A DNA stretch of 40,366 nucleotides from Chloroflexota bacterium (GTDB taxonomy: Bacteria > Chloroflexota > UBA6077 > SHYK01): the NCBI GenBank assembly GCA_035652535.1, contig DASRDP010000117.1, positions 1-40,366 of the forward strand. The letters run 5' to 3'. Shown here piece by piece: positions 8,525 through 12,384 of this stretch. The notes under the pieces were generated by a model, which worked only from the letters and a program-made list of their open reading frames with translations, was not told the DNA's origin and searched no databases. The number at the start of each line of letters is the position of its first letter. Position 1 is the first letter of the stretch. A program made the translations under genes and the position numbers.

Positions 8525-9748
8525 CTAGCTCAGGAGCCGCTCGCGGTCATCCCACACGTCGTTCTTGGAGCGAATCGTCTTCACCAGCTCGACTTTTCTC
8601 GCCATATCGCCGATGAGCGCCGCGCCGACGAGCCGGTTCTCGTAGAAAAAGAGCCGCCGATACGACCAGTTTGTCGGGTTCGAGCCGTTGGGGTAGACGC
8701 GCGAGACGCCCTGGATCTCCGGTCGGATGTCGGGCGTCGCGCCGATGACGGTCATCCGCGAGTCGAAGAGAGTGGTGGTGTACTGTCGTACGTCGCGCAC
8801 GGGCTGCCGATCCCCGAGCATGTTGAGCGCGGAGATCCGCCCGTGGAGCGAGGCGCTGGCCCAGGTCCCCATGGTGTAGTGGCGATCGAGATCGACGTCG
8901 TAAAACTCGGCGATATCGCCGGCCGCGTACACCCCTTCGACGTTCGTCTCCAGATATTCGTTCGTAACAATGCCGTATTTGATGTCGACGGAGCCCGAGG
9001 GCAGGAAACCGTGGTTGTAGGTCAGGCCAAGGCCGCAACCGACGATGTCCGCCTCGATCCTTCGGCTGCCACGCGAGATGACGGCCGCGACGTGGCCATC
9101 GCGGGTCTCGATATGGTCCGCGGTGTCCTCGTACACCATGTCGACGCCGTGGTGGCGCGCGATCCGGTCCACCAGCTCGCCGCCGTCCTCGTCGATCACG
9201 CGGTGGAGGAAGCGAGGGCCGCGGATGAGCCACGTCACGTGCAGGCCGCGCGACCGGAACCCCTCTGCCAGCTCGTAGGAGATGTAGCTGCCACCGATGC
9301 TCACGGCGGAGCGGCCTCGCTCGATCCGTTCGACTAGGTCCTTCGTGTCATCCAGCGTCTGGAAGTAGCAGACCCCGTCCGCGTCGGCGCCGGGCACGTC
9401 GAGGTGGTTGGGCGTGCCTCCGGTTGCCACGAGAAGCCGGTCGTAGGAGAAATCATTGCCAGTGTCGGTGACGATCGTACGGGATTCAAGGTCCACCTTG
9501 CAGACGCGGACGTTGGGGTAGAAGCAGATGTTGCGGTCCCGGTGAAACTCCATCGTCTTCATGAAGAGCTTCGATTCCGGTGTCTTCCCCTTCAAGAAGG
9601 GTGGAAGGGCAACCCGGTTGTAGAGGGGGTACGGCTCGTCGGTGAAGAGGGAGATTCGACAGTCCGGATCGTTCTTGCGGAGCGTCTCGGCGGCTGTTGT
9701 ACCCGCAGTGCCGTTCCCGAGCACTACATAGTGCCGCGCATCGGGCAA
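8525..9748 (-). CDS. FAD/NAD(P)-dependent pyridine nucleotide-disulfide oxidoreductase
   Basis: The 407-residue flavoprotein has an FAD-binding GNGTAG (11-16) after a VVL strand, the LLVATGG segment (about 105-111), a second nucleotide-binding fold with GGSYISYE (about 152-159, where most relatives have GGGxIGxE) and the FAD-closing GVYAAGDIAEF (about 272-282). The NRVALPPFLKGK stretch and layout recall NirB, rubredoxin reductases and ferredoxin reductases. No redox-active CxxC is present, so it is not a disulfide reductase. The start is TTG, preceded by GGAGAGG at good spacing. It lies 61 bp upstream of paaF and may be co-transcribed; a role as electron-transfer partner is possible but unproven. 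Confidence 0.88.
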   Translation of the reverse strand: MPDARHYVVLGNGTAGTTAAETLRKNDPDCRISLFTDEPYPLYNRVALPPFLKGKTPESKLFMKTMEFHRDRNICFYPNVRVCKVDLESRTIVTDTGNDFSYDRLLVATGGTPNHLDVPGADADGVCYFQTLDDTKDLVERIERGRSAVSIGGSYISYELAEGFRSRGLHVTWLIRGPRFLHRVIDEDGGELVDRIARHHGVDMVYEDTADHIETRDGHVAAVISRGSRRIEADIVGCGLGLTYNHGFLPSGSVDIKYGIVTNEYLETNVEGVYAAGDIAEFYDVDLDRHYTMGTWASASLHGRISALNMLGDRQPVRDVRQYTTTLFDSRMTVIGATPDIRPEIQGVSRVYPNGSNPTNWSYRRLFFYENRLVGAALIGDMARKVELVKTIRSKNDVWDDRERLLS

Positions 9749-9850
9749 AAAGCACCTCTCCAGCGAGATTCATGGACGGTTGTCAGGAACAGGTGGGAAG
9801 CAGACCATGCGTTCGCACGGAACGTCGCGCATATACGGTCGCAGGCAGCT

Positions 9851-9856
9851 ATTATA
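9851..9856 (-). promoter_or_regulatory. -10 box (TATAAT) before the FAD oxidoreductase gene
   Basis: TATAAT on the minus strand, giving a leader of roughly 95 nt before the TTG start. The same bases read TATTAT on the plus strand one base over, so a divergent promoter is possible. No clear -35 on either side. Confidence 0.4.
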
Positions 9857-10242
9857 GCGGACACCTCTGGAAGCGCGGCACTCCATGAAGAGAGCCCCGG
9901 CGTGCGGAAGCACATCCGGAGCTCTCCCGTCTCAGCCACTGGTTAGGCTGACAGAAGACCGGGCCATCACCTTGCGCCGGCTGATAGCAGCCGAGACCCC
10001 CGGGCCTTAATCAGGATTGCAGCCTGCGGCCCCCTGTGGGCGATGCGCCGGGGTGCGCCCGGGGTCACCCGGCCCCGCGAGGTCGTCGCGGGGCCTCACG
10101 TGTCCACCTGCCAAACCCCGAGAAGGACTCTGTACCGCATGATCGGATTGCTCCCCCTCATTAGGTGCGTCCTTTCTCTGGCCCCTGCGCAGGTCCAACT
10201 TTATGTTAGCTCTGAGGGGCAACGGGAGCAAGGCGCCCGGAC
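9857..10242. other. Gene-free, hairpin-rich intergenic region
   Basis: I see no convincing gene here. The region carries consecutive stable hairpins. H1 (9890-9926) has GAGAGC/GCTCTC outside, CCGG/CCGG in the middle and GTGC/GCAC closed by a GGAA tetraloop. H2 (9932-9951) is TCAGCC/GGCTGA with an 8-base loop. H3 (9979-9992) is GGCTG/CAGCC with a 4-base loop. H4 (10071-10095) has a perfect 10-bp stem, GGCCCCGCGA/TCGCGGGGCC, with a 5-base loop. None has a T tract, so they are not ordinary terminators. A structured small RNA on either strand, or a leader or 3' element, is possible. SRP RNA, RNase P RNA and tmRNA core motifs were looked for and not found. Confidence 0.35.
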
Positions 10243-10605
10243 CTAGCTCCCCACCGCGAACTTCCCCAACGCGTCCACCAGACGTGCGCCCGTCTCCACC
10301 TGCCGCAGAGCCTGGCGGTAGGCGTGCAGGATCTCATTCTCCCGCTCGAGCTGCACCGTCGTCTCGGTCACCGGGCGTGTCGCATCCTGCGTGTCACCCT
10401 CGGCCATCAACGTGTTCGTCTGGGTCGCGCCGAACGTGTTGCGAAAGATCATGGTGCGGATGATCCGTCGGTCCAGGGTCTCCGTGTACTGGGCGAGGGC
10501 CTCGGTGAGCGCTCGCACACGCGCTTCCTGCTCCTCGATCAGTCCCCTCAGGGCTTTCAGCACCCGCTCCCGGTCCTCGGACAATTCATCAACGTATGAG
10601 GGCAT
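10243..10605 (-). CDS. Hypothetical coiled-coil protein, third gene of a trio
   Basis: The protein has 120 residues and no family I recognise. Residues about 5-50 are a strongly amphipathic helix (ELSEDRERVLKALRG, then EEQEARVRALTEAL) that should form a coiled coil. A middle part, MIFRNTFGATQTNTLM, is followed by a second long helix (about 80-115). No membrane segment or signal peptide is present. The ATG is preceded by GGAGGA, a strong ribosome site located at the end of the upstream gene. It begins 3 bp after that gene stops, so it belongs to one operon with the winged-helix-like and metallo-beta-lactamase genes. Confidence 0.7.
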   Translation of the reverse strand: MPSYVDELSEDRERVLKALRGLIEEQEARVRALTEALAQYTETLDRRIIRTMIFRNTFGATQTNTLMAEGDTQDATRPVTETTVQLERENEILHAYRQALRQVETGARLVDALGKFAVGS

Positions 10606-10608
10606 GGG

Positions 10609-11058
10609 TCACGGTCCTCCCAGCTTCGAATCGAGGGATTTGAGTAGGCGAATGATTTCGTCCAATCGATGAATGATCTGATCGTCGAGATCGCCCGTCG
10701 TCGGCGTGCTCGGCGTTTGCGCGCCCGCGCCGGAGGCGGGCTTCGCGCTCATACCGAGCCGACCCTCCGCTGCGAGGTTCCCTTGCTCCGTCGGCACGAA
10801 CGTGTCGTACTTCACGCCGCGCTCCCACACGGAGATCAGGCCCAACCGTTGCAGCGCCATGAGGGAATCGAGGAATTGATTGCGGCTCGGGTCTTCCTGG
10901 AACTCCGCGTAGCTCAGCTCCGTGAAGCCGGACCGGCGGGCGATCTCCCACTCGTTGAGCGCCCGAATCCGGTCCTTCATGCCCTCCCTGGCGCGGTAGC
11001 CTTCGACGAGGGCTTCCAGCGTCTTTTGCTGAAGTTCGGACAATGGCGCCACGGACAT
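10609..11058 (-). CDS. Hypothetical winged-helix-like protein, second gene of a trio
   Basis: This 149-residue protein starts with a helical domain whose segment from about 58 to 90, FLDSLMALQRLGLIS followed by WERGVKYDTFVPTEQG, looks like the recognition helix and wing of a MarR/PadR-type winged helix. A flexible SAKPASGAGAQTPSTPTTG linker follows, and a C-terminal amphipathic helix (DLDDQIIHRLDEIIRLLKSL) that could dimerise or bind the coiled-coil partner encoded next door. The ATG lies 1 bp after the stop of the upstream metallo-beta-lactamase gene, implying translational coupling. A DNA-binding regulatory role is inferred from fold alone. Confidence 0.7.
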   Translation of the reverse strand: MSVAPLSELQQKTLEALVEGYRAREGMKDRIRALNEWEIARRSGFTELSYAEFQEDPSRNQFLDSLMALQRLGLISVWERGVKYDTFVPTEQGNLAAEGRLGMSAKPASGAGAQTPSTPTTGDLDDQIIHRLDEIIRLLKSLDSKLGGP

Positions 11059-11059
11059 A

Positions 11060-11695
11060 TCAGGAGCGTCGGTATTGCAGGAGGACGACGGTCGGCTCGC
11101 TCGGAAGCGAGCTATGCGTAACGTTAATTCGCGGCTGAGGCTCGGATTGCGTCAGCCCCATCTCGCGGAGAAATCGATCGACCCCTTCCAGCTCGACGGT
11201 GGAGACGTCCGTCGCGTAGTGCATGGGAACCACGAGCTTCGGCTCGATTTGGCTAATGACCTCCACCGCCTCGGACGGCCCAATCGTGCAGTGCCCGCCG
11301 ACGGGTATGAGCAGTACGTTCACGTCTTTCATCAGCTCGATCTGCTCGGTGGTGGGGATGCTCGCCAGGTCGCCCAGGTGGCAGAGGGTGATGTCGTCGA
11401 CGGAGATGATGTAGGCCGTATTTCTCGGGGTGCCCGGGGCCTTGCCGGCCGGCGTGCGCACCCCCGTTACGATGATTCCCTGGACCTCGTATTCGCCGGG
11501 CCCGTCGAGCACCGTGGGTGAGCCAGCCAACTCCCCCACCGCGCTGTGGTTGGGATGCGAATTCGAGATTGTCACGACGTCTGCCGTGACTCGGTTCACG
11601 GAATAGCCGCTGGCCCGCGCGCACGGATCGGTAACCAGCGTCGCGTCCCGGCCTCGCATACGAAAACAGGAATGTCCGATCCAGGTTAGCTCCAC
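11060..11695 (-). CDS. Metallo-beta-lactamase-fold protein with altered metal motif
   Basis: This 211-residue protein resembles the UPF0173/RomA-like branch of the metallo-beta-lactamase superfamily: an opening ELTWIGHSCFRM strand, a DGPGEYEVQGI segment, CHLGD, PVGGHCTIGP and a closing VPMHYAT. The canonical HxHxDH metal motif reads N-S-H-P-N-H here (about residues 50-55), so the first His and the Asp are both Asn, while later ligands (Asp of HLGD, His of MHY) remain. It may bind one metal or none. The start is GTG at 11695 with AAGGAGAGG immediately upstream; the longer frame to 11845 crosses the promoter. It is the first gene of the trio. Confidence 0.85.
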   Translation of the reverse strand: MELTWIGHSCFRMRGRDATLVTDPCARASGYSVNRVTADVVTISNSHPNHSAVGELAGSPTVLDGPGEYEVQGIIVTGVRTPAGKAPGTPRNTAYIISVDDITLCHLGDLASIPTTEQIELMKDVNVLLIPVGGHCTIGPSEAVEVISQIEPKLVVPMHYATDVSTVELEGVDRFLREMGLTQSEPQPRINVTHSSLPSEPTVVLLQYRRS

Positions 11696-11744
11696 ACCTC
11701 TCCTTTCCCTCGTTCCCGGCCCGCCTCGGTGGCAACTGGGCGCC

Positions 11745-11750
11745 ATTGTA
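11745..11750 (-). promoter_or_regulatory. -10 box (TACAAT) of the metallo-beta-lactamase trio
   Basis: TACAAT on the minus strand, about 50 bp before the GTG at 11695. It is divergent from the TATAAT at 11806-11811, with about 55 bp between the two boxes; no clear -35 is visible. Confidence 0.4.
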
Positions 11751-11805
11751 ACAACGCCCGACGCCCTGCCCTGTCTGGCCGCCAGTGCGCTGCGCTGCGC
11801 GCCAG

Positions 11806-11811
11806 TATAAT
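11806..11811 (+). promoter_or_regulatory. -10 box (TATAAT) before the small membrane protein gene
   Basis: A perfect TATAAT inside the small dyad GCCAG-TATAA-TGGC, giving a leader of about 108 nt before the ATG at 11926. Upstream is a GCGCT-repetitive stretch without a recognisable -35. Confidence 0.5.
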
Positions 11812-11925
11812 GGCGAAAATCTGCGGCGGGAGGTGAGTCGGGCAAGGCCAGCCGCGATCCTCAGATCCGAGCGCTGCTCTCATGCACGACGCGCGTGGCG
11901 CACGGGCGCAATTCATGGAGGCGAA

Positions 11926-12384
11926 ATGGCAGGGCAGAACTTCAGCGGATCATCGAGCCAATGGGATGACTACGCGGATCGCATTCGACAGCAATTGCCC
12001 ACCGCACCCGACTCGCTGACGGACGCTTACGTGGCCTGGGCGCCGTGGATCGCGATGATCTTTGGCGCGTTCGGCGTGTTCATGAGCATCGTGCTCCTGA
12101 CCGTGGGGGCGATCTTCTCGCCGCTCCTTCTCCTCGCCGGCGCCTGGGGCATCCAGGCGGGCGCGGCGGCCTTCCTGGCGCTCGTGTTCCTCCTCGTCGG
12201 CAGCGCGCTGGACGTCGTCGGCGGCTACTTCATGCGCCAGATGCGCCTCAACGGGTGGTGGCTCGTCGCGGCGGGCCTGATCGTCGGGATCCTGCAGAAC
12301 GTCGTCCATTTCAGTGTTATCGGCCTCGTCATCGTGCTGGCGATCTCGTACATCCACGTGGAGGTGAAGCCCCGGTACCACTGA
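11926..12384 (+). CDS. Small integral membrane protein of unknown function
   Basis: This 152-residue protein has a 35-residue hydrophilic N terminus (SSSQWDDYADRIRQQL) and then four hydrophobic segments at roughly 38-62, 65-97, 108-122 and 125-143, ending in a short basic tail, IHVEVKPRYH. I do not recognise a family. The ATG at 11926 is preceded by GGAGGCGAA, a strong ribosome site; the frame extends upstream to 11785 but that would put the promoter inside the gene. It stands alone, divergent from the metallo-beta-lactamase trio and convergent with the beta-propeller gene 15 bp downstream. Confidence 0.75.
   Translation: MAGQNFSGSSSQWDDYADRIRQQLPTAPDSLTDAYVAWAPWIAMIFGAFGVFMSIVLLTVGAIFSPLLLLAGAWGIQAGAAAFLALVFLLVGSALDVVGGYFMRQMRLNGWWLVAAGLIVGILQNVVHFSVIGLVIVLAISYIHVEVKPRYH

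Follow-up and report, generated by a model that had tools for sequence, protein, structure and literature searches.

A real unit of three genes, encoding a metallo-beta-lactamase-fold protein (MBL), a winged-helix protein (WH) and a helical-hairpin or coiled-coil protein (CC), has stayed together within a single Chloroflexota order. The unit was studied in a window of 40,366 nucleotides, the whole stretch of DNA analysed, which corresponds to contig C117; the Chloroflexota genome to which it belongs measures 4.45 Mb. WH and CC constitute two undescribed, strictly paired protein families, linked to an MBL-fold gene that is near universal in Chloroflexota. It is put forward tentatively, as a reading somewhat short of probable, that WH and CC, expressed together with a sensor-like MBL-fold protein, make up an obligate pair acting as regulator or adaptor.

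Layout of the three genes

All three genes lie on the minus strand of the window. MBL occupies positions 11060-11695 and encodes 211 aa from a GTG start at 11695, and its product aligns with homologues from the first residue onward. It is followed after 1 bp by WH (10609-11058, 149 aa, ATG start) and, after a further 3 bp, by CC (10243-10605, 120 aa, ATG start). The tight packing proposed in an earlier sequence-only reading has been borne out, with open reading frames at these positions, coding signals and homologues. Codon position 3 is GC-rich in each gene, and divergence between the window and the related genome G001 at codon positions 1, 2 and 3 amounts to 0.25, 0.13 and 0.60 for MBL, 0.37, 0.28 and 0.59 for WH, and 0.45, 0.37 and 0.63 for CC. 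Taking into account this composition, the concentration of divergence at position 3 and the presence of homologues of MBL, WH and CC in five other genera, the three are genuine genes.

The same reading had assigned good ribosome-binding sites to all three genes, which holds for MBL (aaaggagaggt-GTG) and for CC, where the Shine-Dalgarno sequence is strong (gggaggaccgtgaccc-ATG), but not for WH, whose start is preceded by no Shine-Dalgarno sequence of its own (ccgacgctcctgat-ATG). The WH ATG is located one base past the MBL stop codon (TGATATG), and its translation is therefore expected to be coupled to the MBL stop. The trio would represent an accessory module of a single Chloroflexota order, its genes joined by coupled translation. 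A shared promoter had also been proposed, and it was not recovered: a sigma-70 scan of positions 9700-12100, of a kind that says little for Chloroflexota, found neither promoter nor terminator. WH and CC share a common frame in five of six genomes (about 0.02 by chance, noticed post hoc). Read-through from WH into CC has been rejected as a biological explanation, given this post hoc observation and the fact that every CC starts at an ATG of its own, preceded in most cases by a Shine-Dalgarno sequence. Adjoining MBL, a divergently oriented gene at 11926-12384 encodes a 152-aa probable membrane protein with no significant family match.

Distribution and history of the WH-CC pair

Profile searches of 400 sampled Chloroflexota genomes have detected WH and CC in the same six genomes and in none other, all six belonging to one order. 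In every one of them the genes are arranged as MBL, WH, CC, with the pair downstream of MBL. This agrees with the co-occurrence suggested from the window, and the opposite pattern, homologues almost never adjacent elsewhere, was not encountered, adjacency being found in 6/6. The other neighbours vary between families while the MBL-WH-CC order stays. Among the 16 genomes sampled from the order, several of which are incomplete, ten possess MBL with both WH and CC absent, which indicates that MBL does not need the pair; incomplete genomes may hide some WH-CC copies, though the MBL locus is present for each. Scoring of 29 genomes of the class for WH yielded no additional convincing match, and weak matches in other class members (E 0.05-0.9) were taken as chance. 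A CC match in genome G038 proved to be a coiled coil within a transposase-like open reading frame. A contig scan with WH alone, whose reach outside Chloroflexota is poor, matched only the contig of G001.

When mapped on the MBL tree, the presence of the pair requires four changes, at least three of them forced by well-supported branches. The tree is readable as a single gain of WH-CC after the split of G006, followed by about four losses, each taking both genes. Of 500 trials with shuffled labels, 44 needed no more changes than this, and the clustering of the pair is accordingly not strong in itself. In G003, an oxidoreductase gene comes immediately after MBL; in the window and in G001 this gene comes after CC.

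These data bear on the notion of ordinary co-transcription, whereby three functionally unrelated genes would share one operon and remain together by descent within a single order. MBL is an old gene passed on by vertical descent, and with 16 sampled genomes the order is small, so neighbours may persist by inertia; nonetheless, WH and CC have been lost jointly, never singly, in about four lineages, and the gene order has been retained though identity between families falls to about 40% for WH and about 30% for CC. Simple co-transcription thus appears quite improbable. An origin of the pair as a mobile or viral element has likewise gained no support, with WH absent from the viral contigs and plasmids searched and CC absent from the phages searched. 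A PADLOC analysis returned marginal matches only, and neither the defence-protein match nor the mobile or viral presence expected of an anti-phage defence system has been found.

The WH and CC proteins

The WH protein comprises a winged helix (residues 8-97), a disordered linker (approximately residues 102-120) and a C-terminal amphipathic helix (residues 121-145). Its AlphaFold model exceeds a pLDDT of 90 over most of residues 8-97, and the best Foldseek matches are regulators of the PadR and MarR type, generic in nature, with E values of about 3e-3 to 1e-2 and none below 0.001. The model and these matches together support the earlier description of a winged-helix-like protein. As in PadR and MarR regulators, a winged-helix fold (best E about 3e-3, a generic match) is combined with a helical C-terminal part. 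WH differs from them in that the segment between the helix-turn-helix helices is expanded, the tail is set on a disordered linker, the helical hairpin is encoded by a separate gene, CC, and a sequence family match is lacking. Neither WH nor CC has a convincing family match in Pfam or NCBIfam, those of PadR and MarR included; convincing Pfam matches are likewise lacking for homologues taken from other genomes, three of WH (none above cut-off) and five of CC, and profiles of both proteins searched against the sequences of solved structures gave nothing convincing.

CC is modelled as a helical hairpin of two long helices, in keeping with the coiled coil attributed to it from the sequence. The helices span residues 163-209 and 214-255 of an artificial WH-CC fusion, in which the WH stop codon was read as a residue and both proteins were folded together, and the hairpin reaches a pLDDT of about 97. 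The alignment of CC homologues contains no stretch conserved well enough to probe viral contigs with. The fusion, with a pTM of 0.44 and no interface score returned, also served as an interface test, and a weak one. It had been suggested that the matching helical ends of the two small proteins form a complex, yet confidence in the WH tail helix did not rise in the fusion (pLDDT of 58, 78 and 67 over its last three blocks alone, 67, 80 and 63 when fused), and this weak test gave no sign of the tail packing on the CC hairpin. The joint presence and absence of the two genes provides a stronger argument for the pair than does the fusion.

Considering these structural matches, WH and CC could be read as an autonomous two-gene split PadR-like regulator, with a DNA-binding WH and a helical CC for dimerisation, merely transcribed behind MBL. 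The best Foldseek matches of both WH and the fusion include PadR and VanR, in which a winged helix is combined with a helical C-terminal part; MBL is found without the pair, and changes in the MBL metal site do not track its presence. Long alignments of the fusion have an rmsd of about 20 A, so that a full-length resemblance to PadR or VanR is not established, and the pair stands behind MBL in all six genomes across the order despite changed neighbours elsewhere. An autonomous regulator is accordingly judged unlikely, if worth serious consideration.

A further alternative arises from the WH domain, whose composition (11-13 K+R against 11-16 D+E) is close to neutral or slightly acidic, making DNA binding not obvious, and which bears an expanded conserved segment, SYxEFxxSPER, preceding the last helix. 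Both properties would suit structural adaptors that are not DNA binders, with WH and CC serving as a scaffold for the MBL-fold protein, joined in some genomes by a fourth small protein. The tight packing and translational coupling of the genes suggest a fixed stoichiometry, and protein-binding winged helices, MukE and the C-terminal domain of ScpA, occur among the matches. The resemblance of the WH winged helix to the MukE-MukF and ScpAB adaptors is a weak one of fold, the fusion matches being local with very high rmsd, and no SMC or kleisin gene has been identified among the annotated neighbours. Six basic residues of the winged helix (K28, R30, R32, R41, R42, and R59) are invariant, DNA-binding regulators remain the top Foldseek matches and the fusion shows no interface of the WH tail helix with CC, which together render pure adaptors rather improbable.

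In the favoured reading of an obligate regulator or adaptor pair, WH and CC would probably form a physical complex. WH would supply a winged helix capable of binding nucleic acid or protein, as well as an oligomerising tail, and CC a helical-hairpin scaffold. The pair would be co-expressed with, and probably act alongside, the ancient MBL-fold protein.

The MBL-fold protein and neighbouring genes

The MBL product belongs to Pfam family PF13483 (Lactamase_B_3), matched over residues 2-159 with an E value of 4.6e-49 and 166.9 bits against a gathering cut-off of 24. MBL has been detected in 187 of 201 sampled Chloroflexota genomes, and a limited literature search found no functional study on it. 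Its nearest solved relative is TM0207 (1VJN; phmmer E 3.9e-40), to which it is related over the whole domain, with the GDL, GG-TI (here GGHCTI) and PMHY motifs in common. The two differ in that TM0207 reads SHQHFDH and the window protein SNSHPNH, so that NSHPNH stands in place of the HxHxDH of a catalytic zinc-dependent hydrolase. With 64 bits, the protein stays below the 144-bit cut-off of NF001911, the model for the PRK00685 metal-dependent hydrolase. The altered metallo-beta-lactamase fold recognised earlier is hence upheld.

The HxHxDH motif is incomplete in all 16 MBL proteins of the order, with one or both leading histidines gone in 13, whereas the 18 Chloroflexota proteins compared from outside the order all keep the two, the aspartate often being glycine. 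The changes occur both with and without the WH-CC pair, which excludes a tie between the two and makes the altered site a trait of the whole order and not a property of the trio. GDL and PMHY are retained across the order save for G007, which has changes in both; its MBL (L041:5070-5720) has nearly all metal-site motifs gone (NHTSQH, GAL, PMYY), with the open reading frame intact. In the favoured reading, the protein of this order more likely binds a ligand than acts as a catalyst. The metal site having lost ligands in this lineage, the protein might serve in ligand sensing, and the trio may have a sensing or regulatory role. A more specific proposal appears rather doubtful: a lineage-specific sensory complex involving two previously undescribed families, in which an MBL fold devoid of its catalytic metal ligands would be the ligand-binding subunit for a winged-helix and hairpin regulator. 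With the metal site decaying and the protein retained throughout, the order offers a natural setting for testing a shift of the MBL fold from enzyme to binder.

In other Chloroflexota, the MBL gene can adjoin rho (L068, L072, L073, L079) or the CTP synthase gene pyrG (L070, L075-L078, L080, L082, L083), an arrangement that may hint at what its core function is. These neighbours are seen in the same class and elsewhere, and one copy of each has been confirmed by Pfam.

Within the order, a fourth small gene family has been found at L032:4837-5034, L035:7397-7642 and L041:5725-5922, encoding proteins of 65-81 aa with a YFxAFxxRC motif; the copy of G008 has no Pfam match. In G010 and G008 the gene separates MBL from WH, and in G007, where WH and CC are missing, it comes after MBL. 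The window, G001 and G009 leave no space for it at that position. Four genes may have made up the ancestral unit. In G006, the place behind MBL is taken not by WH and CC but by a gene (L033:4606-5046) whose 146-aa product gives a marginal match to a double zinc ribbon.
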